Assembly: GCA_021806565.1 (NCBI GenBank)
Contig: JAJZXK010000012.1
Coordinates: 1-49,688 of the forward strand
DNA from: Bacillota bacterium
Lineage (GTDB): Bacteria > Bacillota > Sulfobacillia > RBS10-35 > JAJYVN01
Direction: 5' to 3'
Length of the DNA stretch: 49,688 nt
Shown piece after piece: positions 9,997 to 46,228 of the stretch; within the stretch, counting starts at the first letter, position 1; each line of letters opens with the position of its first letter. A program made the position numbers and the translations under genes. The notes under the pieces were generated by a model. It had not been told where the DNA came from. It made no database searches and saw only the letters and a list, made by a program, of their open reading frames with translations.

Positions 9997-10288
9997 GGGC
10001 CGTCCTCCAATCGGCGGGGCCACGCGAGCGGATTGAACACCGCCAGGGGCACACCCTGCGGTCCGCAGTGTGGTCCGCCCGTCGCGTTCCGCCCGGAAAC
10101 GCACCACCCGGCACCGCTTCGCCTGCTCCCAGCCCGCCAAACCCCACCCCACAGCGGCCGCTGACGGCCCGTGCGCCCTCCCGCAGTCGGGCCGTCCGGG
10201 GCCACCCTCGGGCCGCGCGTGAACGGCCGCGACATACCCCCGCGGCTTCGGCGGAAAACTTCCTGCACGTCCTACACACACAGGGGGT

Positions 10289-10317
10289 TTGCCCTGCCTA
10301 CCCCCGCCTGGTATACT
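10289..10317 (+). promoter_or_regulatory. Sigma-A-type promoter of the riboswitch transcript
   Basis: TTGCCC (10289-10294) and TATACT (10312-10317) are spaced by 17 bases, close to the vegetative consensus and unusual in so GC-rich a region. Transcription would begin near 10324, just before the riboswitch aptamer. The same segment in the degenerate copy at 7628 has lost the -10 box. Confidence 0.6.
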
Positions 10318-10339
10318 CCATCACGGACACGCGCACCGA

Positions 10340-10525
10340 TCCGCTACCCCCAGGGTTGCGGCACCGGGTCGCGGATCCGAGCCAAATCGCTCCGGGCGCA
10401 AGCCCGCAGCGAGCGGGGGAACCGTCTTCCGGGGCGTATGTCGCCGGACTCCGGCCGCTCGGTCGGTGCGCAGCGACAGGGGCACCCTCGCCCGAGCCCG
10501 TCAGCTCACCCCGCCGGCACAGAGG
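10340..10525 (+). ncRNA. ydaO/yuaA-type cyclic di-AMP riboswitch
   Basis: The RNA carries the conserved ydaO blocks in the right order: GAGCCAAAUC (10379-10388), a short hairpin GGGCGCAAGCCC, GCGGGGGAACC (10413-10423), a U-rich CUUCCGGGGCGUAUGUC, and the highly conserved 3' segment CCCGAGCCCGUCAGCUCACC (10491-10510). The Thermoanaerobacter ydaO aptamer has matching GCCGAAUCC, GGAGGAACC and CACCCGACAGCUAACUCC. The family binds two c-di-AMP molecules and usually turns off cell-wall hydrolase or potassium-transport genes. A promoter lies just upstream. A perfect 7-bp hairpin, GCACCGC-UCCG-GCGGUGC (10582-10599), sits directly before a strong Shine-Dalgarno (10607-10615) and could be part of the expression platform. 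I did not verify the pairing of P1 by computation. Confidence 0.8.
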
Positions 10526-10624
10526 GGTGTCGCGTGTAGGCCTGGTCGGACCGGCCGCTGCGCGTCGCGCCCTTTCCATCCGCACCGCTCCGGCGGTGCT
10601 GGCTCTGGAAGGAGGCCGCAGACG

Positions 10625-10996
10625 ATGAAGTTGCTTCTCGAAGATGCTTGTCGCGTCAAACACACACGGATACACGCCCCGGCGAGTTCCACCTCGCCTG
10701 GATCCTTTACCCACCATCCCCCCGGCCGCACGGAACCGCCGGCCGTCCTGCCGATCCGTGACGGTCCACTGCTGGCCGCCCGCCCGGCGGCGGACACCCT
10801 CCCGCTTCGGGACCGGCCGCGCCCAGTCCGCCTGCCCCGCCGCGATCCCTCACCCACCACCCGGCCGGTGCGCTCCCACCTGCATCACCACACCCCGGCC
10901 GCCCGCAGGGCCGCTTCCAGGCGGCCAGAGGGTGTGCGGCAGGCATTTCGTCTGAATGCCGACGCGTGTCCGCAGCCGCCGCCCACTCCCCGTTGA
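10625..10996 (+). pseudogene. Open frame behind the c-di-AMP riboswitch, probably a gene remnant
   Basis: An ATG at 10625 follows GGAAGGAGG with good spacing, so translation very probably starts here: MKLLLEDACRVKHTRIHA. After ~20 codons the reading becomes proline- and arginine-rich low complexity and ends at 10996 (123 residues) with no domain. Genes behind ydaO riboswitches usually encode NlpC/P60, Rpf or LysM wall hydrolases or potassium importers. None of these is seen in any frame down to 11061. I infer that the original coding sequence was deleted or scrambled, leaving the leader. Another possibility is that the leader now drives cysH at 11062. No terminator with a U-tract is seen between them. 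Confidence 0.35.
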
Positions 10997-11061
10997 TCAA
11001 TGGCAATACACCGTAGAGGCCGATCGCCATCGAGGCTAATGGACTGGGGAGGAATGAACCG

Positions 11062-11808
11062 ATGTCCATGCGACGAAATGCGGCCACCGCGCCGGCAGTC
11101 GAGCCCGATACCGCCGGACCTCCGCTCGCGGAGTTGGCCGCCCGCAACGCCGAGTTCGAAGCGGGCGGCGGCAGGGCCGCCGAGATCGTGGACTGGGTGG
11201 CACGGACGTACGCCCCCAATGCGGTGCTGGCCTGCTCCTTCGGCCTGGAAGACTGCGTGCTGGTGGATCTGGCAAGCCGGCACGGGCAAGGCGTCACCGC
11301 CTTCTACCTCGATACGCAACTGCTCTTTCCTGAAACGTACGCAACGCGCGACCACCTCGCCGAACGTTACGGGGTCCGCTTCGTGGCCATCCGGCCGGTC
11401 AAAGACGTCGAGCAGCAGGCGCAGACGCACGGGCCGGCCCTGTGGCGCCGCGACCCGGACCTGTGCTGCCGCTTGCGCAAGGTGGAACCGCTGCAGGCCC
11501 ACCTCTCCGGCCAGCGCGCCTGGATCACCGGCATACGCCGCGAGCAGTCACCGGCGCGGGCCGGCGCCCCCTACGTCGGCTGGGACGACCGCTTCGGGCT
11601 GGTCAAGGCCAACCCGCTGGCCGGCTGGACGGCGCAGGATGTGTGGGACTACGTCCGCCGGCAGGACGTTCCACATAACCCGCTGCACGCGCAGGGCTAC
11701 CCGAGCATCGGCTGTTGGCCGTGCACGCGCGCCGTGCGTCCCGGCGAGCCCCCCCGCGCCGGCCGCTGGTCCGGCCGTGGCAAGACCGAGTGCGGGTTGC
11801 ACGCCTGA
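11062..11808 (+). CDS. cysH: Phosphoadenylyl/adenylyl-sulfate reductase
   Basis: A 248-residue enzyme that reduces APS or PAPS to sulfite with thioredoxin as electron donor. An upstream GGGGAGGA precedes two possible ATGs (11054, 11062); the reading with the conserved protein starts at 11062. The PAPS-reductase fold shows the PP-loop-like ACSFGLED and the LDTQLLFPETY motif. The two cysteine pairs C135-C136 and C218-xx-C221 (GCWPC) are those that bind a [4Fe-4S] cluster, which favours the APS-using, iron-sulfur type. The catalytic C-terminal motif ECGLH carries C244, four residues from the end. No sulfate permease, ATP sulfurylase or sulfite reductase is near. Instead comA follows after 52 bases, so the sulfite may feed organosulfonate synthesis. 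Confidence 0.93.
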   Translation: MSMRRNAATAPAVEPDTAGPPLAELAARNAEFEAGGGRAAEIVDWVARTYAPNAVLACSFGLEDCVLVDLASRHGQGVTAFYLDTQLLFPETYATRDHLAERYGVRFVAIRPVKDVEQQAQTHGPALWRRDPDLCCRLRKVEPLQAHLSGQRAWITGIRREQSPARAGAPYVGWDDRFGLVKANPLAGWTAQDVWDYVRRQDVPHNPLHAQGYPSIGCWPCTRAVRPGEPPRAGRWSGRGKTECGLHA

Positions 11809-11860
11809 ACCGCGCACAGAAGGACGCACAACACACGAAGATGAGACGGAGGACGAGTAC

Positions 11861-12730
11861 ATGGCGGATGACAAGCACGCGCGGCAAGACGGGGTGTGGG
11901 CAGGCACCTGTGACCTGCCGGTCGCGGGCCGCTCGGCCAAACCCCGCACCGACGGCCTGACGATGGTCATAGACAAGGGTATGGGCGCCTCGGCCACCCA
12001 GGACCTCCTGGAACTCGCCGGCCCGTACATCGACCTGCTCAAGCTGGCATTCGGCACGACCGCCTTCTATTCCAAGGCAGCGCTGGAGCGCAAGCTGCGG
12101 CTTGCCGCTGATGCGGGCGTGCTCGTCTACCCCGGCGGAACCTTCCTGGAGGTGGCGGTGGCGCAGGACCGCGGCACGGCCTTCCTCGAGCGCGCGGCCA
12201 GCCTCGGATTCCGCGTCATCGAGATCTCCGACGGTACCATTCAGATGCCGGCCCACACCCGGTACAGCCTGATGGAGCGAGCGGTGAAGTTGAACCTCAG
12301 GGTCCTGAGCGAGGTGGGTAAGAAGCACCCCGACGACCGTCTTTCGAGCGACACCCTCCACAGGCAGATCGCACAGGACCTCGACCACGGTGCCTGGAGG
12401 GTGATCGTCGAGGGCCGCGAGTCCGGCAAGGGGGTCGGCATGTATCGGGATGACGGCAGCATCGATGCCAGTGAGATGGAAGAGATCGCCGCCTGCGTGC
12501 CGGACCCCGCCCAGTTGATCTGGGAGGCCCCGCTCAAGCCGCAGCAACAGGAACTCATCCTGCACTTCGGCTGCAACGTCAATCTGGGGAACATCCCCGC
12601 GACCGAGGCCCTGGCCTTGGAGGCGCTACGCGTCGGACTGCGCGGCGACACCCTGAGGGCCACGCTCGCCGCGCAGGAACTGCCCCCGCTCCAGGAGCGG
12701 TCGCGCGCCTCCGCCCGTCCTAGCGCCTGA
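11861..12730 (+). CDS. comA: Phosphosulfolactate synthase
   Basis: A 289-residue protein starting at ATG 11861, with GGAGGACG about 7 bases ahead. It matches the ComA family of TIM-barrel enzymes: PRTDGLTMVIDKG near the N-terminus, LLKLAFGTTAFY, GVLVYPGGTFLEVA, LGFRVIEISDGTIQM, LSEVGKK and WRVIVEGRESGKGVGMYRDDG are all recognisable blocks. The enzyme adds sulfite to phosphoenolpyruvate to give (2R)-phospho-3-sulfolactate, the first step of coenzyme M synthesis in methanogens and of sulfolactate formation in some Bacillus spores. The C-terminal ~30 residues exceed the common core. Together with the upstream cysH this would couple sulfite generation to sulfite use. ComB, ComC and later enzymes are not in the window, so the end product is unknown. 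Confidence 0.93.
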   Translation: MADDKHARQDGVWAGTCDLPVAGRSAKPRTDGLTMVIDKGMGASATQDLLELAGPYIDLLKLAFGTTAFYSKAALERKLRLAADAGVLVYPGGTFLEVAVAQDRGTAFLERAASLGFRVIEISDGTIQMPAHTRYSLMERAVKLNLRVLSEVGKKHPDDRLSSDTLHRQIAQDLDHGAWRVIVEGRESGKGVGMYRDDGSIDASEMEEIAACVPDPAQLIWEAPLKPQQQELILHFGCNVNLGNIPATEALALEALRVGLRGDTLRATLAAQELPPLQERSRASARPSA

Positions 12731-12736
12731 ACCCGC

Positions 12737-12803
12737 GCCGGCGCCCCGCCCCGTGCGCCCCACCGCGGATCGGATCCGTGCCGATCCACGGCGGGGCGCC
12801 GGC
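12737..12803. terminator. Nested inverted repeat between convergent genes, probable bidirectional terminator
   Basis: GCCGGCGCCCCGCC (12737-12750) and its exact reverse complement (12790-12803) form a 14-bp stem. Inside, GGATCGG (12767-12773) and CCGATCC (12781-12787) form a second 7-bp stem. The structure fills the short gap between the convergent ends of comA and the DHA2 transporter. No T-tract follows on either side, so termination by a pure intrinsic mechanism is uncertain. Confidence 0.5.
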
Positions 12804-12814
12804 CGCCGGCCGCT

Positions 12815-14286
12815 TCACCCCTGCGCCGCATCCACCGCGCCCCGCGACCCCCACACCAGCGACAGGGCGAGGGCCGCCACCAGAAAGCTGATGGCGCTGA
12901 GCATCGCGCTGCGCAGGCCGGTGAGGAAGAGTTGCGCCAGCGCCGGGGTGAGGTGGCTCACCCCCAGGAAGATAGCGAACGCGTCCGCGCGCGGGATGCC
13001 GGTGGAGGCCGCCAGCAGGGCGACGGCAAAGCTCATCACCATGCCGACGTTCGAGAGGGTACGCAGCAGGCCGGAGGCCAGCCCGTAGGCCTCCGGCGGC
13101 GCGTTGGCCATGACCGCCGCGTTGTTGGCGGGAAAGAAGAACGCGTTTCCCACCCCGTTGATCAGCGCGGCGATCCCCACGACCGCCACCGACGAGCCGA
13201 GGGTCAGACTGGCGTAGAGCAGGAAGGCCACCGCCTGCAGGCCCAATCCGAGCGACACCGGCAGGCGGGAGCCGGCGCGGTCCGCCAGCCGTCCGGCCAG
13301 CGGCGCGACAAAGCCCCCCAGGACGTAGCCCGGCACCAGTACGAGCGCGGCCACGAAGGGTGACAGCCCCCGCGCACCCTGTAGATACATGATCACGAGG
13401 AACATCACGGCGTAACCGCCAAGGGATTGGAAGAACGCCGCCAGGACCGAGGCCCGCAGCACCGAATGGCGCAACAGCCCCAGGTCCAGCAGCGGCGACG
13501 CCACCCGCCGCTCCCAGACCACAAGCAGCCCGAGCAGCGCGACGCCGCCCGCGAGCTTGGCCGCCGTGGTGGCGGTGAAGCCGACCCCCGTCGTATCCGT
13601 CAGCGCCAGCAACACCAGAAGCAGGCCGGCGCCCAGCAGGGCCGTACCCACCAAGTCCAGGCGCTGGGCGATGCGATGGACCCGCTCGCGCAGCCCGCGC
13701 ACCCCCATCCACAGCCCCACGGCGCCGATCGGGACATTGATGAAAAAGATGGCGCGCCAATTGAAGAACGTGATGATCAGGCCGCCGAGCAGGATGCCGA
13801 GCACCGCGCCGACGCTCCAGCCGATCGCCACCAACCCGTAGGCCCGCCCCCGCTCGGCCGGGGGGACGGTGTCGGCGATGATCGCGCCGCTGTTGGCAGA
13901 GACCAGCGCACCACCCAAACCCTGGACGACCCTGAAGGCGACCAGTTGCGGGCCCGACGCCGCCAGGCCACACAACAGCGACCCGGCCGTGAAGACTGCG
14001 AATCCGACGTTATACATCCGCACCCGGCATACATGTCCCCGAAGCGGCCGAGCTGCGTCGTCATCATGGTCAGCACCAGCAGATAGGCCATGATGACCCA
14101 AACCATGCCTACCATGTCCGAGTGCAGCCGCTGCATCATGACCGGCAGGCCGAGCACCACGATCGTCGTGTCGACGGCGGTGATCATCACCCCCATCAGC
14201 ACCACGAACATCGCCAAGCTGCGGTAGCGCTGGTCCGCCGCGACCGGGGCCTGGGGCATGGGACGTTCAGCTGCGCTGCGCGCCAA
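12815..14286 (-). pseudogene. DHA2 (EmrB/QacA-type) MFS drug exporter, frameshifted
   Basis: The protein begins at TTG 14286 (GGAGGAGGG seven bases upstream) with LARSAAERPMPQAPV, then the first membrane helix MFVVLMGVMITAVDTTIVVLGLP, which carries the DHA2 hallmark D-T-T-I-V. It proceeds to GRFGDMY and there the frame breaks. The rest (RMYNVGFAVFTAGSLLCG onward, to 12815) is in another frame. One missing base around 14021-14030, in a run of C and G, restores GDM-x-RVRMYN, the expected loop 2-3 motif A. Everything else looks intact, including motif C and about 14 membrane segments. This is either a recent inactivating mutation or a sequencing error. Members export drugs and amphiphilic compounds by proton antiport. 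Confidence 0.7.
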
Positions 14287-14473
14287 CGAGGCACCCTCCT
14301 CCGATGCGAACGGGGGCTGAGGAACGAGGCGCGTCGAGGCGACGGAGACAGCGCCAGTGTAATCACCACGGGCCACCCGCAACAGAGGCGCCGTCCCGCT
14401 CCCGCCTCCCAGATCGGCATCCATCCGAGCAGCCGACCGTCCCAGAGCTCCAGCGACCCGGCCCGGAGGCCGG

Positions 14474-15763
14474 TCAGGACGCCAGGCTGCGTCCGGCGGC
14501 GGGACGCGGTTCGTAGCGGCCGAGCACCGTCGCAAACAACACCACATAGACCAGCTGCAACCCCGCGGCGACGAAGATCGGCAGGCCGAGCGCCCCCAGG
14601 CCGATCAGCCAGCCCGCCACAAGCGGTCCGGCCGCCCCCGGCACGCGCATGGAGATCAGGTTGAGGCTGCTGGCCAACCCCCGCCGGGCGTCACGTACCA
14701 GGCCGACCCCGAAGGCCTGACGCGCACCGGCCGAACCGCGGTTAAGCACAGAGCGCAGGGTATACGCGGCGGCGGCCCAGCCAAAGCTCGGGAGGAAGGG
14801 CAGGCAGACAAACAGCACCAGGGCAGCGGCCCGCACCGCCACCACCGACCGCACCAGGCCGCGGCGCGCGGCGAACTCACCCGCCACAAGCGACGCCAAC
14901 CCCGTCAGCAGGAACATCGCCCCGTATACCGGTCCGAGCGCCTGAGGACCGACGCCGTAGCGCAGCGCAAACCAATAGGGGAGGATCGGGCCGGCGATGC
15001 CGATCGCCAGGGCGTTGACGGCGTTGACGCTCACCAGCAGGGCCAGCGCGGTGTTCTCCCGCCGCCGCAGCGTCGGCTCGGCCTCCGCCTCGTGAAGCCC
15101 CCCGGCCTGGGGCTCCGCCGCTGGACCCGGCCGTTCGGGCCGGGACTCCGGCAGGCCGGCGATCTGGGCGTAATTCACCAGCGCCAGGATCCCCGCAACA
15201 CAAAACAGCGGCATGAAGCGCTCAGGCCCGGCCAGCCAGCGAGACCACAGCCCGACCGCCCCACCCAGCAGCGAGCCGAGCCCCATGCCCCAAAAGCCGA
15301 CGGCGCTGTTGAGGCTGAAGGCGCGGCCCCGTTCTGGTTCGGGCACCAAGCGCGCCAGCCAGGCCTGTTCCGCCGGTCCGAACGCACCCGCGGCACCGTT
15401 GGCGCCCAGTCCGAAACCGACCGACAGCACCGCCGCAGTCAACACCCACGCCGTCGGCCGGGCCAGCACCGCCGCCGCGGCCAGGGCGAGCGCCGCCTGG
15501 TAGGCCAGCAGGAACGGCCGCCGGCCGAAGCGGTCGCTGAGGATGCCGACCGCGAGCCCCAGGGCGGCACCCACCAGTTCGGCGCCGGCCAGCAGGGCGC
15601 CCACCCGCAGGGGCGCCCAGTGCAGGGCTTTGAGATACAGGACGAAGTCGACCGCCAGCGCCCCCTGCGCCACGCTGCGCAAGGCCCGAACCTCCATGAG
15701 CCGGCGGGCCGCGGGCTGCAGGCGGCGCCATCCCTCAAGCAGCGCGCCCGGTCGCTGGACCAT
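14474..15763 (-). CDS. MFS transporter (12-helix)
   Basis: A 429-residue membrane protein. ATG 15763 has GGGAGGGGG 5 bases upstream. A GTG at 15820 overlaps the marR stop (GTGA) but lacks a ribosome site, so I prefer 15763, although coupling remains possible. The loop 2-3 motif reads LSDRFGRRPFLL, the usual MFS motif A. The halves are separated by a charged loop (about residues 205-235, rich in E, P and R). It is a clear paralogue of the MFS protein at 31738-32958: shared blocks include GANGAAGAFGPAEQAWLA, SLNSAVGFWGMGLGSL and RSVLNRGSAGARQAFGVG. It is transcribed directly behind a MarR-type gene, which suggests repression relieved by the transported compound. The substrate is unknown. Confidence 0.88.
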   Translation of the reverse strand: MVQRPGALLEGWRRLQPAARRLMEVRALRSVAQGALAVDFVLYLKALHWAPLRVGALLAGAELVGAALGLAVGILSDRFGRRPFLLAYQAALALAAAAVLARPTAWVLTAAVLSVGFGLGANGAAGAFGPAEQAWLARLVPEPERGRAFSLNSAVGFWGMGLGSLLGGAVGLWSRWLAGPERFMPLFCVAGILALVNYAQIAGLPESRPERPGPAAEPQAGGLHEAEAEPTLRRRENTALALLVSVNAVNALAIGIAGPILPYWFALRYGVGPQALGPVYGAMFLLTGLASLVAGEFAARRGLVRSVVAVRAAALVLFVCLPFLPSFGWAAAAYTLRSVLNRGSAGARQAFGVGLVRDARRGLASSLNLISMRVPGAAGPLVAGWLIGLGALGLPIFVAAGLQLVYVVLFATVLGRYEPRPAAGRSLAS

Positions 15764-15816
15764 ACCCGCCCCCTCCCCGCCAGCCGGCGAGGGCGATCCC
15801 GTGGGTTCCGGCGGCC

Positions 15817-16323
15817 TCACAGATTGCCGGGCTGCGGCAACACGCGCATCAAGCCGCGCAGGCCGACCGCCAACGCCCGTCGTTCGCCGGGCCGCAGGTC
15901 CGCCGCGAGTGCGGCCAGCACGTCCTGCTGCCGTCCGCGCGCCGCCGCGACCGCCGCGTCGCCGGCAGCCGTACGGCCAAGCGGCACGGAGCGCCGGTCG
16001 GACCCGGGGGCGCGGCGCTCCACCAGACCGCGGCGCACCAAGCCGGCGACCGCGGTGCTCGCTGTGGCCGGCGTGACCTCCAGGGCCGCGGCGAGTTGCG
16101 TCACGGTCGCGCCCCCCCGCCCCAGCAGCTTCAAGATGCGGAACTGCGTCAGAGTCAACGCCGCCTCACCGCCGGCCGCTGCCTGGCGCACGATGCGCAG
16201 GACGACGGGTAAGACCTCCAGCGCAGTGGCGACCACCGCCAGCGGCCGTTCGTCCTCCGCCAAGCCCCGCGCCTCCTCCACCCTCCATCTGATGCGCTGA
16301 TGCGCACCACACATATTCAGCAT
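15817..16323 (-). CDS. MarR-family transcriptional regulator
   Basis: A 168-residue winged-helix protein from ATG 16323 (a second ATG stands at 16314). The winged helix spans residues 56-105: TLTQFRILKLL, then the recognition region VTQLAAALEVTPATASTAVAGLVRRGLVERR, followed by the wing tip DRRSVPL (109-115), a MarR signature. Flanking helices would form the dimer interface. It is the first gene of an operon with the MFS transporter and very likely represses it. The start region has the imperfect palindrome TTTAGGCATGCTGAA (16313-16327), covering the start codon, which could be the operator. MarR proteins respond to phenolic or lipophilic ligands. The actual ligand is not known. Confidence 0.88.
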   Translation of the reverse strand: MLNMCGAHQRIRWRVEEARGLAEDERPLAVVATALEVLPVVLRIVRQAAAGGEAALTLTQFRILKLLGRGGATVTQLAAALEVTPATASTAVAGLVRRGLVERRAPGSDRRSVPLGRTAAGDAAVAAARGRQQDVLAALAADLRPGERRALAVGLRGLMRVLPQPGNL

Positions 16324-39528: not shown

Positions 39529-40938
39529 CTACCCGGCGGCACTCGCGGCCGCGCTGGCGGTCAGGGGCGCGAATGCCTTGGAAACGGCCCGCATGGCCGA
39601 TGCGGTGGACTGCTTACCCAGGAAAAACGGGTCCAGCGTGTTCGACCAAGCGGTATTCAACTGCACGAAGTCCGCCAGGGTGTGCCCCGGCGCCTCAAAG
39701 GCTTGACCCGGTGCCAGGCCCCCCAGGACCACCGACTTGAGTTGCTTGTAGGTGAGGGTCATGCCGGTAAGTTTCGACTCGAAGCGGAGCGTGCTGTCCT
39801 GCAGCGTCGACAGGGCCGGAAAGAAGCCGGTCGTCAGCGCGAAGGACTTGGCACGTGATCCCGTGGTCAAATAGAGCAGGAACTGAAAGGCCGCCTTCGG
39901 ATGCGCGGTGTGGCGCGACATCACCCACGCGTCGGTCCAGAGCTTGGTCGTATCCTTTCCTCCGGGGCCATACGCGAAGGGTGCGATGGCCCAGCGGAAC
40001 GTCGGGTGCACCGCCAGCATCGGCTGCACGATGTAGATCCCGCTCTGCACACCGACCCGGCCCGTCATGAACGGGTCGTTTCCAAGCGTGGTCAGCGCGG
40101 TCATATCCGTGGGCGAAGGGGACACATGGTCTGTGACCGACAGGTTCTTCGCAAAGCGCATCGCAGCCGTGTAGCAGGCGGACGTGAAGTAGGTGGCGCT
40201 CACCATCCCGGTCCGGTACGCGGTGGCCGCAGACGGCCCGCCACTTGGGGCAAACGGATCGCAACCCCACAACCACGAGAGATCCGTTCCAAATTGACCC
40301 GGCGAAAGATTCAGTCCCCAGACCGCCTGGGTGGGATGGGTAGTGTGCCGGCTGATGGCTTTTGCATCCTGTACAAGCGTGGAGAGGGTCCAGGACCGAT
40401 CGGCCCAGGAGGTCGGCGGCAGGGGAAGATGTGCCTTGGCAAACAGCGTCGCGTTGTAAAACAGGACCGACGGCATGTTGTCCATGGGAAGGCCGTAGAC
40501 CTTACCGCCACGCGTGAGGGAGGTCATCGCGGACGCGTTCCATTGCTTCATGGGAACATCGCTGGAGCGCAAGTACGGCGTCAGATTCGCCAACGTTCCT
40601 TTGGCCAGAAACGTTCCAAACCCGGCAGCAAATGTCGCATACACGGCGGGCGGGGTCCCGGCCGCGGTCAGCGACAACAGCTTCGCGTTATACGCCGACC
40701 ACGGAACACTGATGATGGAGATATGCACGTCCGGATGCAGGTGCTGATACTGTCCGGCCACCTGCTTTTCCCACTCAACCACTTTGGGCCCCATGTCCGA
40801 CCTCGTCAGCCACGTCAGGGTCACCACGGGCTTGCCCGCGGCGGTACCGCGGTGGCCGCAGGCGGTGAGCGCCATCGCCACGCCGAGCGTCAGGATTCCC
40901 AGGCACATGCGGCCCGTCGACCCAATGCGCATCCCCAA
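39529..40938 (-). CDS. Extracellular sugar-binding lipoprotein (ABC, CUT1)
   Basis: A 469-residue protein. AAGGAG lies 9 bases before TTG 40938, which I prefer; ATG 40932 is the alternative. The signal peptide ends at lipobox LTAC (C27). The mature part has VVTLTWLTRSDMG, VYATFAAGFGTFLAKGTLANLTPYL, GKVYGLPMDNMPSVLFYNATLFAKAHLPLPPTSW and NDPFMTGRVGVQSG, the standard family 1 solute-binding plan. It is a clear paralogue of the binding protein at 42823-44208 (shared 'PPTSW-x-DRSWT', 'VSP', 'GTPP'). It is the last gene of the minus-strand transporter unit. It may have a different ligand from its paralogue, since residues in the pocket region differ. Confidence 0.92.
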   Translation of the reverse strand: MGMRIGSTGRMCLGILTLGVAMALTACGHRGTAAGKPVVTLTWLTRSDMGPKVVEWEKQVAGQYQHLHPDVHISIISVPWSAYNAKLLSLTAAGTPPAVYATFAAGFGTFLAKGTLANLTPYLRSSDVPMKQWNASAMTSLTRGGKVYGLPMDNMPSVLFYNATLFAKAHLPLPPTSWADRSWTLSTLVQDAKAISRHTTHPTQAVWGLNLSPGQFGTDLSWLWGCDPFAPSGGPSAATAYRTGMVSATYFTSACYTAAMRFAKNLSVTDHVSPSPTDMTALTTLGNDPFMTGRVGVQSGIYIVQPMLAVHPTFRWAIAPFAYGPGGKDTTKLWTDAWVMSRHTAHPKAAFQFLLYLTTGSRAKSFALTTGFFPALSTLQDSTLRFESKLTGMTLTYKQLKSVVLGGLAPGQAFEAPGHTLADFVQLNTAWSNTLDPFFLGKQSTASAMRAVSKAFAPLTASAAASAAG

Positions 40939-40991: not shown

Positions 40992-41825
40992 TCAGCGTGA
41001 AGACACCACGATGCCGCTGAGCAGGTAGTTCTGAGCGAAGAAGAAGATGGTGATCGGCACCAACGCCATCATCAGAGACACCGCCATCAACTGGTTCCAC
41101 GGGGTGGCGCCGTATGCGGAGCGAAAGTTCGCAATGCCGAGCGCAAGCGTGTACTTCGAGTTCGAGTTAATGTAGATGAGCGGGGCCAGAAAGTCGTTCC
41201 AGGAAAACTGGAAATGGAACACAGCCGCGGCGGTGAACGCCGGAACGGCGAGTGGACGCGCTATGCTCCAATACAGACGCGGGTAGCCGCATCCATCGAT
41301 GCGTGCCGCATCGAACACCTCCTCCGGGATGCTCGAAAAGAACTGCCTGAAGAGAAAGATGAGGAAGGCCGATCCACCGAAAAACGCCGGAACGATGAGC
41401 GGCAGATAGGTGTTGACCCATCCGAGTGTCTTGAACAGGACGAACTGCGGGATGAGCAGCACCGCCATCGGCAGCATCATGGTGGACAGGACCAGAACGA
41501 AGAAGAACTTCTTCGTGGGAGCGTGCAGGCGAGCAAAGGCAAAGCCGACGACCGAGGCGGAAAGCACCGCGCCCAGCGTGGAGAGAACGGCGATCTCACT
41601 CGTGTTGAGAAAGTACCGGGCGAACGGCAGGAACGTCAGCCCTTTGGGATAGCTTGCGAAATCGAGCGGATGCGGCACGAGTTCCGGTGGGAATCGCACG
41701 ATTTGCGCCAGGTGCTCCACGGAGGACGCGACCATCCAGTAGAACGGAAAGAGGATGAGCAACACCCCGGGCAGGAGCACAGCTGCGGCCAGAATGCGGC
41801 GCATGCGGCGCTTTCTCCCCGCCAT
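40992..41825 (-). CDS. Sugar ABC transporter permease (MalG type)
   Basis: A 277-residue protein from ATG 41825, with GGGAGGGG 6 bases ahead; ATG 41843 would add six residues without support. Six membrane segments are visible, the first being AAAVLLPGVLLILFPFYWMVASSV. The EAA loop is PEEVFDAARIDGCGYPRLYWSIARPLAVPAF. The C-terminus QNYLLSGIVVSSR matches the MalG-type 'GLTAGAVK' position. It lies between the second binding-protein gene and the MalF-type permease, with a few bases between them. Confidence 0.93.
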   Translation of the reverse strand: MAGRKRRMRRILAAAVLLPGVLLILFPFYWMVASSVEHLAQIVRFPPELVPHPLDFASYPKGLTFLPFARYFLNTSEIAVLSTLGAVLSASVVGFAFARLHAPTKKFFFVLVLSTMMLPMAVLLIPQFVLFKTLGWVNTYLPLIVPAFFGGSAFLIFLFRQFFSSIPEEVFDAARIDGCGYPRLYWSIARPLAVPAFTAAAVFHFQFSWNDFLAPLIYINSNSKYTLALGIANFRSAYGATPWNQLMAVSLMMALVPITIFFFAQNYLLSGIVVSSR

Positions 41826-41846
41826 CGCAGCCCCTCCCCCCATCGC

Positions 41847-42791
41847 CTAACGTTCGGAACCGTAGAACACCCAACGGGCGGAGAACTTGAATATCAAGAG
41901 CGTGAGCATCATGACAATCGCCAACAGTATCCATGCCTGGGCGGAGGCGAGGCCCATCTTGAAGTACACGAATGCATTGTTATACAAGGCGAGGTTGTAG
42001 AAGTAGGACGCATAATCCGGTCCACCCTGAGTCATCACGAAAGCGGTGGCGAATATCTGGCTGGCGGCGATCAGGCCGACAATGAGGTTGAACAGGATCA
42101 GAGGCGAGATCATCGGCACCGTCACATGGCGAAACTGCCGCCACGCAGAGGCCCCGTCCAGTTGCGCCGCCTCATAGAGCTCGTTCGGCACCCCCTGCAG
42201 AGCCGCCAGGAACAGGACCATCGGCCCTCCCACGCCCCACAGCGACATGAGGATGAACGCCGGCAGCACCCAATGGGCGCTTCCGAGCCAATCCGGCCCG
42301 TGGATGCCGAAGGCGGCGCTGAGCGCCCAGTCGATGACGCCGTACGTGGGGGCGAACAGGAACAGCCACAGCATGGCGGTGGCGACCTGCGGCATGATCG
42401 TCGGGAGGTAGTAGATGGTGCGCAGGGCGCGCATGCCGATGATGCGGACGTTCAGCAACAACGCCAGGGCGAGCGCGACCGCCAGGTGCAGGGGCACCGC
42501 GACGGCGACATAGGTGAAGGTGACGCGCAGGGACTTCCAAAACAGCTGGTCCCGCGTGAATAGATAGGCGTAGTTCGCGAGCCCCACCCAGTGCGGCGGA
42601 TGGATCACGTCGTAACGCGTGAAACTGAAGTAGGCCGACCCGACGATCGGATACAGCATGAAGATGAGGAAGCCGATGATCCATGGACTGATGAGCACAT
42701 GGAACCAGAATGCCTCCCGGCGGGCCTGTCGAGAGGGTCGAACGCTTCTCGCCCTGCGCAGCGAAAGCGGTGTCGCCGGATCCACAGGCAT
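41847..42791 (-). CDS. Sugar ABC transporter permease (MalF type)
   Basis: A 314-residue protein from ATG 42791 with a G-rich stretch just before it. The N-terminus is basic, then WFHVLISPWIIGFLIFMLYPIVGSAYFSF, the typical first helix. The EAA loop is PNELYEAAQLDGASAWRQFRHVTVPMISPLI. Six membrane segments are visible. It pairs with the MalG-type protein. No ATPase gene is present, so a shared MsmX/UgpC-type ATPase elsewhere in the genome must energise it, as is common for CUT1 importers in Gram-positive bacteria. Confidence 0.93.
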   Translation of the reverse strand: MPVDPATPLSLRRARSVRPSRQARREAFWFHVLISPWIIGFLIFMLYPIVGSAYFSFTRYDVIHPPHWVGLANYAYLFTRDQLFWKSLRVTFTYVAVAVPLHLAVALALALLLNVRIIGMRALRTIYYLPTIMPQVATAMLWLFLFAPTYGVIDWALSAAFGIHGPDWLGSAHWVLPAFILMSLWGVGGPMVLFLAALQGVPNELYEAAQLDGASAWRQFRHVTVPMISPLILFNLIVGLIAASQIFATAFVMTQGGPDYASYFYNLALYNNAFVYFKMGLASAQAWILLAIVMMLTLLIFKFSARWVFYGSER

Positions 42792-42822: not shown

Positions 42823-44208
42823 CTAACCCCCCGCGGCGCGCTCCTGGTGCAGGAGGACGTCCAACGAATGCTGCAGATCAGTGAGCGCCTTGCGCGGCGA
42901 TTCCTTCCCATTCCAGACGTTTGCCGTCCCGTTGACGAACTCGCTACTCCAGTGGGGCCCGCCTGAAAACACCTTAGCCGGGAAGATGTACCCATCGCTG
43001 GCCAGGATGCCGCCGCCCACCACCTGTGCGTCCTGGGCATACGTCTGCCCGTTGCCCGGCAATGCCGCGAGGCGGTGCAGGTAGATCGACAGGTCGACTC
43101 GGTTCGAAGGCACGTAGCCACCGATCTTGGCGTAGCTTGCGGCGGCGGGCCCGACGGTGAGGTACGCGACAAAGGCCGCAGCGGTCCGCGGGTGCGGGCT
43201 CTTGGCGGCCACGGCCCAGCCGGACACGCCCGTCGGGCTCAGGTCCCCGCCGGGCCCGTACGGTACGGGGGCGATACCCCAACGGAAGGACGGGTGCGCG
43301 CCGGAGAACACGTGGAGCCCGGTGATCAGCGTGTCCTCCATGCCGACGCGCCCGCTGAGAATGGGATTGCCCAGCACGCCCAATGCCGTCGCCTCATCCG
43401 CGGTTGGTGACACATGCCACTTGGTGATGAGGTCCGCCAGCCACGTCATGGCGGCAAGGAACTGCCCGCTGTCCACATGCGGCTGGTCCGGAAGTCCAGT
43501 ACGGTACGGCCGCGCATGGGTCGGACCCGACGGGCTGAACATATCGGCGCCCCACAGCCAAGCCGTGTATCCGAGCTGCCCCGGCCCCATGATCAGACCA
43601 TACACGGACTGCGCAGGAGTCGACCCACTATGACTCAGGCGCTTGGCATCCCGCAGCATCTGGCCGATCGTCCATGAGCGATCCGTCCACGACGTCGGCG
43701 GATAGGTCAGGCCGGCCTTTTGGAAAAGGGTGCGGTTGTACAGCACGACCATCGGTGGATCGCTGAAAGGGAGCCCATATATCTTGCCGTTACGCATCAT
43801 CGTGTCCACAACCGACTTGTGAAAATACTTGGAAAGGTGGATATTGAGCGCGTGCAGTTGCGGGGTGATATCCGCCAGCATGTGTTTGGCGTAAAAGGTA
43901 CCGAATCCCATCGCATACGTACCCACGACATCCGGTGGTGTTCCCGCCGCGTACATGGTGAGGAACTTTTCATTGTACTGCGCAACGGGAGCCGAGACGA
44001 TCGTCACGTGGGTCCCGGGGTGGCTGCGCGCGAACGCCGCGGCCGTTTGCTTCGCCCACGCAGCGGAACCCGCCCCAAGGTCGCTGCGGACCAGCCAAGT
44101 GATGCGCTTGGTGCCCGCACCGCCGCCGGCGTTCGCACCGCCCGCCGCACAGCCGCTCAGCAGCAGGCACGCGGCCGTCGCGCCCGCCAGAATCCTCCTA
44201 TACTTCAT
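42823..44208 (-). CDS. Extracellular sugar-binding lipoprotein (ABC, CUT1)
   Basis: A 461-residue protein from ATG 44208. The signal peptide MKYRRILAGATAACLLLSGC carries the lipobox LSGC (C20). The mature sequence follows family 1: TWLVRSDLGAG, VVGTYAMGFGTFYAKHMLADITPQL, GKIYGLPFSDPPMVVLYNRTLFQKAGLTYPPTSW and NPILSGRVGMEDT. It is the first gene of the four-gene importer unit. Just upstream, a strong Shine-Dalgarno points at a different ATG (44237), which opens a 10-codon frame ending in TGA that overlaps this start (ATGA). An 8-bp tandem repeat lies within that mini-frame (see the repeat entry), so the effective start is unusual. Confidence 0.92.
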   Translation of the reverse strand: MKYRRILAGATAACLLLSGCAAGGANAGGGAGTKRITWLVRSDLGAGSAAWAKQTAAAFARSHPGTHVTIVSAPVAQYNEKFLTMYAAGTPPDVVGTYAMGFGTFYAKHMLADITPQLHALNIHLSKYFHKSVVDTMMRNGKIYGLPFSDPPMVVLYNRTLFQKAGLTYPPTSWTDRSWTIGQMLRDAKRLSHSGSTPAQSVYGLIMGPGQLGYTAWLWGADMFSPSGPTHARPYRTGLPDQPHVDSGQFLAAMTWLADLITKWHVSPTADEATALGVLGNPILSGRVGMEDTLITGLHVFSGAHPSFRWGIAPVPYGPGGDLSPTGVSGWAVAAKSPHPRTAAAFVAYLTVGPAAASYAKIGGYVPSNRVDLSIYLHRLAALPGNGQTYAQDAQVVGGGILASDGYIFPAKVFSGGPHWSSEFVNGTANVWNGKESPRKALTDLQHSLDVLLHQERAAGG

Positions 44209-44235
44209 GGCCAGATGGCCAGATGGCCAGATGGC
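44207..44235. repeat. 8-bp tandem repeat (3.6 copies) over the start of the sugar-binding-protein gene
   Basis: On the plus strand the unit ATGGCCAG occurs three times at 44207-44230, followed by ATGGC. On the minus strand this is read between the ribosome site (GGGGGGAGG near 44243-44251) and the lipoprotein start. The best-spaced ATG (44237) makes MPSGHLAIWP and then stops on a TGA at 44207-44205 that overlaps the lipoprotein ATG 44208. Because 8 is not a multiple of 3, losing one unit would put ATG 44237 in frame with the lipoprotein. Confidence 0.7.
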
Positions 44236-44334
44236 ATGGCATCCTCCCCCCTTTTCACGCGCCACGGTTGATGCAGATCGCGAATCCATTCCCCGTCTTT
44301 GGCCGCAGCACCGAGAGATTGGAAACGAGAGGCT

Positions 44335-44340
44335 GTTATA
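44335..44340 (-). promoter_or_regulatory. Possible -10 element for the sugar transporter unit
   Basis: TATAAC on the minus strand, about 127 bases upstream of the lipoprotein start, is the best -10-like hexamer in the 44252-44536 gap. The expected -35 position reads GAGAAC, a poor match. Nothing else in the gap can be supported. Confidence 0.25.
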
Positions 44341-44536
44341 CCTCGTGGGTGATCGGTGTTCTCACCAAGCCCTCTCGGACCCTGTCGCACGATGGGCAGA
44401 AAGTCCGGACTGTGGGACGGCGCCAGGCGTGTCGGCTTTAGTGGGTGGTGCCGTGATCATCCACCTACGGTAGGCTGTGACAGGTACGAGATGTGGCGGC
44501 GGGGGCCCGCCGCGGCCGCGATGCTAACGGCCGCCC

Positions 44537-46228
44537 TCAGCCCTGCGGCGTCCGGTAACGGCCGCCGGAGAACGTCCATACCTGCGGGACCACCTTGCCA
44601 CCGCTCTGGGTGGCGACCGTGATGGTGTACGGGGCATACGGCTGCGGTTGCGTCAGGCGCGGGTAACCGCCGGCCGGGGCGCTCACCATCTGCCCGATCA
44701 GCGACGCCTGCGTGGCGCCCAAGCGGTAGACGGCGAGGTCCGAACTGCCGTGGTGCGCCGAGAGCAGGGTACGCAGCACCAGGGCGGTGCCGCCGTCGCC
44801 GCCCAGGTCCCCGCAGGCGACGGGATAGGTGCCCTGCGACAGACCGGGCAGGTCGATCCCGGTCAAAGGCTGGCCCGACGGGCCATCGACCTTCAGGCTG
44901 GACGGCCGGGCGGCAAAGGTGAACCCGTCGTTCTTCTGCGCCTGCACCGATCCGACGCGCCACCGCACCACGTCGGACCCGCAACGCAGTTGTCCCCCGG
45001 CCCAGGCCTTCGCGCTACTCAACGACGGCAGGGTGACGCGGTCCAGCGGTCGGAACCTCACCACGCGCGCCCCCAGCAGTTGGGGCGCCCCCGCGAAACG
45101 GCCGACCGTGAAGGCGATGACGCGGGCCGCCAGGGGGGTGCCGGGCGCGTACCCCGGCGCGCGCGACCCGGGCCCGGTCGGGGCCAGGGATGCCCGCCAG
45201 AGGGCGGCGTGTACCCCGGAGCGTAGCGGCAGTTCCTCGCGGACCACCACACGCACCCGACCGTCGCGTACCGGCCAAGCGTCCATGACCTGGGCGCTCA
45301 CGGGCGGCCACTGACCGCGAATGAACCCGGAGAGCGTGTGTCCGGCCTGCCAGCCGTAGCCCCATGCGGCGTAGGCCGTCCCCCAGGCGGCACGTCCCAG
45401 GGCACGCTCGTAGCCGGTGACCAGCGATCTGGCCGCGGTCGTCGTGACCGCGCCGGGCAGCGCCGCCGTCTGCACCTGGGCGGCGGCCAGCCGCGCGGTC
45501 ACGATCAAGCGGTGGGTATCCCAGAGGCCCGAGCAGGTGACCAACTGCAACAGGTGCTGCTTGGTCGTCAGACGCAGGGCGGAGGTATCCGTCGGAGTGA
45601 CCAACTGGGTACCGGTGACGACGTATGTATAGGAAGAAGCGGGGGTCTCCACCTGCAGCCGCGTCCCGGGTCGCAGCCGGTGCAGGTGCTGGAAGACCGA
45701 TCCCCAGATGTTCACGTGCCCGAAGATCACCACGTCTCCGGTCTGCCCCGGCAAGGCCGATCCCTGCAGGTGGGCCGGCCCCCGGCGCAAGAGCGTCTGC
45801 CAGACGCTCGTCTGGAAGGTCAGCCCCTGCAGCACATAGGCATCGAGGCCGATGGACCGCACCCGCAAACGCGCCAGCACATGGCCGAACCCGACTGGGG
45901 CGGCGGGCGCGGCCGCGCTCTTCGCGGCCGTCCGGGGCGGCGAGGCGGCGGTAGTCGCGCCGCCGCCCGGGGCCGACCGGCCGAGCGCACCCCGACTGCC
46001 ACCGACCGCCGCCGCCCGCTCGGCCGCAAAGTGCCGGGCGGCCGTGTGCTGTGCGGCCGCGTCCAGCCAACCGGACCACAGGGGGGCCGCGATGAGGACC
46101 AGGCCCGCCCCAGCACAGACCACCCCGAGGAGCAAACCGAAAAGGGCGGCACGGCGGCGGCGGCGCCGACCGCGCCGCCGCGCATGGGTCGGAAGGGCGG
46201 GATCCGCCTCCCGCACCGACGCCGCCAC
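44537..46228 (-). CDS. Sortase with a long C-terminal extension
   Basis: A 563-residue protein from GTG 46228, five bases after the wall-protein stop. A basic cytoplasmic start (RRRGRRRRRR) leads into one membrane helix (about 28-50), then an Ala-rich linker. The sortase domain spans roughly 115-250: FGHVNIWGSVFQHLHRL with catalytic H171, LVTCSGLWDTHRLIV with C232 and R240. The pattern fits class D/E-like sortases, usually 200-270 residues long. Here ~310 more residues follow, largely beta-type, with blocks like VACGDLGGDGGTALVL that recall FG-GAP/VCBS repeat loops. The enzyme would cleave the MPKTG motif of the neighbouring protein and attach it to the wall. The extension might bind glycan or dock substrate. 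I do not recognise its family. Confidence 0.87.
   Translation of the reverse strand: MAASVREADPALPTHARRRGRRRRRRAALFGLLLGVVCAGAGLVLIAAPLWSGWLDAAAQHTAARHFAAERAAAVGGSRGALGRSAPGGGATTAASPPRTAAKSAAAPAAPVGFGHVLARLRVRSIGLDAYVLQGLTFQTSVWQTLLRRGPAHLQGSALPGQTGDVVIFGHVNIWGSVFQHLHRLRPGTRLQVETPASSYTYVVTGTQLVTPTDTSALRLTTKQHLLQLVTCSGLWDTHRLIVTARLAAAQVQTAALPGAVTTTAARSLVTGYERALGRAAWGTAYAAWGYGWQAGHTLSGFIRGQWPPVSAQVMDAWPVRDGRVRVVVREELPLRSGVHAALWRASLAPTGPGSRAPGYAPGTPLAARVIAFTVGRFAGAPQLLGARVVRFRPLDRVTLPSLSSAKAWAGGQLRCGSDVVRWRVGSVQAQKNDGFTFAARPSSLKVDGPSGQPLTGIDLPGLSQGTYPVACGDLGGDGGTALVLRTLLSAHHGSSDLAVYRLGATQASLIGQMVSAPAGGYPRLTQPQPYAPYTITVATQSGGKVVPQVWTFSGGRYRTPQG

Follow-up and report, generated by a model that had tools for sequence, protein, structure and literature searches.

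A perfect octamer array between the Shine-Dalgarno sequence and the start codon of a sugar-binding lipoprotein gene suggests a leader-coupled start

The window, a 49,688-nt stretch of DNA from an uncultured Bacillota genome, carries on its minus strand a four-gene carbohydrate ABC operon that lacks an ATPase of its own:

42823-44208, minus strand: first gene, sugar-binding lipoprotein SBP_bac_1/SBP_bac_8 (PF01547/PF13416), 461 aa from ATG 44208
41847-42788, minus strand: ABC permease 1, BPD_transp_1; probable start MPVDPATPLSLRR, approximate
40992-41843, minus strand: ABC permease 2, BPD_transp_1
39529-40938, minus strand: second sugar-binding lipoprotein, 39% identical to the first, with its own Shine-Dalgarno sequence (SD) and no tandem array

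The first protein begins with a lipoprotein signal, MKYRRILAGATAACLLLSGC, that contains a good lipobox (LSGC), and, among proteins of solved structure, those closest to it in sequence bind maltose or arabino-oligosaccharides. The SBP_bac_1 fold family, the lipobox and the adjacent BPD_transp_1 permeases identify it as the binding lipoprotein of a carbohydrate ABC importer, in agreement with the initial annotation of this DNA. A sortase-domain gene (44537-46228, minus strand) ends upstream and leaves about 330 bp for a promoter; scanning 44150-44600 for sigma-70 promoters and terminators found none.

The start region of the first gene holds the following features:

44243-44253, minus strand: strong SD, AAGGGGGGAGG, -14.6 kcal/mol when paired with the genome's own anti-SD
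44240-44242, minus strand: third ATG, abutting the SD (spacing 0) and opening a 14-codon ORF (44242-44198); an unlikely start
44205-44237, minus strand: leader ORF of 10 codons, MPSGHLAIWP (stop), from the best-placed ATG, 5 nt after GGAGG
44207-44235, minus strand: perfect octamer tandem array, 3.62 copies of GCCATCTG (any rotation, e.g. CCATCTGG; plus-strand unit ATGGCCAG)
44194-44199, minus strand: AGGAGG, SD-like, at lipoprotein codons 4-5, -10.2 kcal/mol

Read from 44253 to 44194, the minus strand is AAGGGGGGAGG ATGCC ATG CCATCTGG CCATCTGG CCATCTGG CC ATG A AGTATAGGAGG, so that the 29-bp array separates the SD from the lipoprotein ATG (44208). Tandem Repeats Finder (TRF) returned the same interval (44207-44235, period 8, 3.6 copies, 100% matches), which outscored every other perfect array of the window. 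The initial annotation had described 3.6 copies of an 8-bp unit between a strong SD and the lipoprotein ATG, and this matches base for base. When 326 kb of this genome were generated anew five times under an order-2 Markov model, no perfect array of at least 22 bp with a period of 4-15 appeared, which argues against a chance origin. In 1.62 Mb of the genome this is the single octamer array with more than 3.0 copies. As in contingency loci, the array is uninterrupted, lies above background and has a unit that shifts the reading frame (perfect 3.62 x 8 bp).

The source assembly is a draft (213 contigs, 92.6% complete, 3.9% contamination) and probably metagenome-assembled, and one might suspect that the repeat number is wrong or that a mixed population was collapsed to one value. 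We regard this as very unlikely, since a read of ordinary length spans a perfect 29-bp array with much to spare, so that assemblers resolve it.

Pairing energies were calculated with the 3' end of the genome's own 16S rRNA (...GGATCACCTCCTTTCT). With this partner, the lipoprotein ATG at 44208 is without an upstream SD (-1.5 kcal/mol) and lies 34 nt past GGAGG. A count over 498 long reading frames showed that, in this genome, in-frame ATGs are enriched about 5-10 nt downstream of GGAGG and are near background beyond about 15 nt. Because SD strength and spacing both favour 44237 over 44208, de novo initiation is expected at 44237, with the lipoprotein made via termination-reinitiation. The two ATGs are 29 nt apart, and the leader TGA (44207-44205) overlaps the lipoprotein ATG (44208-44206) as ATGA (44208-44205), a stop/start overlap of the kind that marks termination-reinitiation coupling. 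The 10-codon peptide from the best-placed ATG, the overlap of its stop with the lipoprotein start, the distance of 29 bases and the coupled-start geometry had all been proposed in the initial annotation and are borne out by our reading of the sequence. The third ATG had not been mentioned there; its ORF, from 44242, stops at a TAG 8 nt past the lipoprotein ATG. An SD-driven start from the AGGAGG at codons 4-5 was rejected, there being no ATG, GTG or TTG at a usable distance downstream.

The lipoprotein could also start upstream in frame, at ATG 44289 or GTG 44265, with the array read through and the gain or loss of a unit acting as a classical ON/OFF frameshift. Indeed, the frame that begins at 44289 runs across the array without a stop (488 aa), and in an orthologue from a related genome the basic n-region is likewise longer, at about 20 residues. 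Yet the SDs of both candidate starts are weak or misplaced (-5.7 kcal/mol at spacing 0, and -3.3 kcal/mol), and either start would bury the strong SD at 44243-44253 inside the gene, which makes this reading highly improbable.

That related genome (G005), from the same family, carries the orthologous operon in the gene order binding protein, permease, permease, binding protein; its first protein is 55% identical, a distance too great to align the spacer or to reconstruct its ancestral state. The start region of this orthologue reads GGAGG, 10 nt, GTG, and the array is absent. Since the orthologous operon has a normal SD-start arrangement and no array, the array is, by this comparison, lineage-specific. 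In the same stretch of the G005 genome (L054, G005:C100 from 5000, 10240-16000) there is a sulfatase-like gene further downstream, and the second binding-protein gene is broken by a run of N. A wider search gave the same picture of absence: the pair of adjoining octamers was found nowhere else in this genome with one mismatch allowed, nor, as an exact match, in the five other genomes of the family, and no tandem array of at least 20 bp turned up in 198 kb from relatives, most of it from the neighbourhood of binding-protein genes. A scan of other genomes' contigs gave a Lederbergia protein as its only match (31% identical), and this was without the repeat. The genus is represented by a single genome, probably a MAG, which is the source assembly itself.

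The isolation of the octamer also bears on the proposal that the array is a protein-binding or RNA regulatory element, built either on the TGGCCA palindromes that recur every 8 bp or on a hairpin (UGGCCAUCUGGCCA) over the start region. The units are self-complementary and a local hairpin is predicted. However, the leader region folds no more stably than its dinucleotide shuffles (z = +1.4), the 8-bp spacing mismatches the helical turn, and neither the rest of the genome nor the family contains this octamer pair. We therefore give this proposal little credence.

The reading that we favour, with moderate confidence that amounts to an even bet, is that the array is peculiar to this lineage and arose in the SD-start spacer by slippage or tandem duplication, and that its current state works by leader translation and reinitiation. 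Slippage or tandem duplication would have grown the array between the SD and the native lipoprotein start, adding about 24 bp to their separation. In the present state, the strong SD would recruit ribosomes, initiation would most probably take place at ATG 44237, and ribosomes would translate the 10-codon leader and stop at its TGA, which overlaps the start codon of the lipoprotein. Reinitiation at ATG 44208 would then rely on coupling without a local SD, presumably at reduced efficiency. The array probably makes ribosomes pass through the leader first. Removal of local SDs cut reinitiation in E. coli gene pairs (by 60-90% in three of five pairs, and completely in one; PMC6728339), and for this reason the coupled lipoprotein start is plausibly weak. 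The array itself, the geometry, the SD strength and the absence of the array in the orthologue are direct observations; the origin by slippage, the start used, the reinitiation and the expression levels are inferred. Operon-first binding-protein genes usually need high expression, and a weak coupled start sits uneasily with that expectation.

To follow the consequences of unit number, copy-number states from 0.62 to 6.62 were enumerated in silico, an exercise in sequence logic only. With three units removed (0.62 units), ATG 44208 lies 10 nt from the SD, within the genome's usual range, and gives a direct, normal start; because of this restored spacing, slippage growth probably displaced an ordinary start. 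At 1.62 units the SD-proximal ATG is out of frame and the leader stop falls 8 nt past the lipoprotein ATG, and at 2.62 units the SD-proximal ATG is in frame and provides a direct start with a 7-residue N-terminal extension (MPSGHLA). The state seen, 3.62 units, couples the lipoprotein to the leader by ATGA; at 4.62 units the leader stop again lies 8 nt beyond the lipoprotein ATG. On this enumeration, a different number of units gives the lipoprotein gene a different start or frame, as in contingency loci, and changes in copy number would alter the mode of initiation.

The initial annotation had noted that one unit fewer reduces the 29 bases to 21 nt, which is in frame. The arithmetic is right, but we rejected it as evidence for a switch: any out-of-frame upstream ATG regains the frame at either -1 or +1 octamer, and the coincidence therefore carries no weight. 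A working phase-variation switch, in which slipped-strand mispairing would move the gene among a coupled start (3.62), a direct start fused in frame (2.62) and a poorly placed one (4.62) and so give a mixed population with differing importer levels, has other points in its favour. At every step, the frame and the placement of the SD-proximal ATG depend on copy number; the gene encodes a lipoprotein exposed at the surface; and the array is perfect, like slippage-prone arrays. In addition, strains of Haemophilus influenzae differ in the length of one octamer repeat, which has anything from 1 to 6 units (PMC2651432), and pilus expression in Streptococcus gallolyticus is switched by repeats that lie within a leader ORF (PMC3894217). 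Against these stand the small size of the array, whose 3.62 units barely exceed the cut-off of 3 units from which octamers are listed as simple sequence repeats (SSRs) in a survey of H. influenzae (PMC2651432), and its absence from the G005 orthologue. Likewise, the single genome of the genus gives no sign of high-rate copy-number change or of selection as a switch.

A survey for perfect arrays with a period of 4-15 and a length of 20 bp or more, run on stretches of the genome that total 1.62 Mb, weighs in the same direction. It yielded 24 arrays, of which about three, as judged by inspection, were start-proximal against 1.2 expected from start zones covering 5% of the sequence, an approximate count, as gene starts were called crudely; this is no significant clustering at gene starts. 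The three are the 44207-44235 octamer, a 2.62x octamer 5' of ftsZ and an in-frame 9-mer, so that only the first two are both frame-breaking and near a start. Multiple repeats at gene starts, which are common in phase-variable species though not strictly defining, were not found in the 1.62 Mb, and, within the stretches scanned, no similar arrays preceded other binding-protein genes of the genome. ftsZ is an essential gene, and because one of the three start-proximal arrays precedes it, incidental slippage fits better than an evolved switch.

The array at ftsZ (GAGGTCCT x2.62; L060, G000:C3, 1247-1267) is itself SD-like and ends just before the ftsZ SD region (MLDFDVDEQRYAVIKVVGVGGGGNNAVDRM). 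The genome also holds hexamer microsatellites of related units, GATGTG x11.3 (L036, G000:C31, 1791-1858), TCCACG x6.7 (L092, 11583-11622), CGTCCA x6 (L154, 3154-3189) and TCCACA x5.5 (L129, 5768-5800), apparently mostly intergenic or in doubtful frames. Two tetranucleotide arrays share one common unit, CCAT x5.75 (L098, G000:C60, 1876-1898) and ATGG x5.0 (L130, G000:C154, 1539-1558), and apparently lie in intergenic or 5' regions, the latter ahead of what is probably the true start of a nucleotidyltransferase-like gene.

Collectively, these data make a working phase-variation switch unlikely, and we consider the array an ordinary product of slippage: a potential genetic switch, not an established one. 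The more specific proposal of a phase-variable importer in a probably free-living, uncultured lineage, where octamer slippage would switch between direct, coupled and mis-coupled initiation as a graded three-state translational switch, appears quite unlikely. If it were true, it would provide an example outside host-associated bacteria, where such loci are mostly known, and if the unit number varied in populations, the locus would give compact, graded expression of a nutrient importer by initiation mode, not by frame breakage. As seen, the locus indicates how an ordinary start can become leader-coupled when the spacer between SD and start codon grows by slippage. A literature search found no paper that joins phase variation, a tandem repeat, an SD, a start codon and slipped-strand mispairing.

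Among known systems, the locus appears to work like a leader-coupled start, while its membership in the phase-variable loci has a weak prior. With SSR contingency loci, such as the lipooligosaccharide (LOS) genes of H. influenzae, it shares a unit not divisible by three near the start, more than one possible ATG, and a unit number that selects frame or start. Functional initiation codons of H. influenzae lic2A were reportedly treated by Dixon et al. in 2007 (cited in PMC6479036). The present case differs in having 3.62 units at one locus in a single sequenced length, and in the position of its repeat between SD and start, whereas theirs lies inside the reading frame. The H. influenzae octamers suspected of switching, upstream of the hmw genes, have 12-15 units (PMC2651432). 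The S. gallolyticus pil1 leader peptide, with 22 GCAGA repeats, is alike in that the repeat lies inside a short SD-driven leader ORF and unit number shifts the leader stop relative to downstream expression signals. In contrast, pil1 acts through a transcription terminator (PMC3894217), and no terminator-like stem was found here, where the leader stop overlaps the next start. ATGA overlaps are known to couple translation (PMC6728339), and short leader minigenes can alter downstream translation, as in axe-txe (PMC8708949). Our locus resembles the former in the overlap of an upstream stop with a downstream ATG, and the latter in the very short leader ORF that precedes the gene; it departs from both in that the upstream ORF, of 10 codons, is made of repeat units and the downstream start is without its own SD. 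Each half of the proposed mechanism has a separate precedent among known systems, in the pil1 leader and the axe-txe minigene (PMC3894217, PMC8708949).
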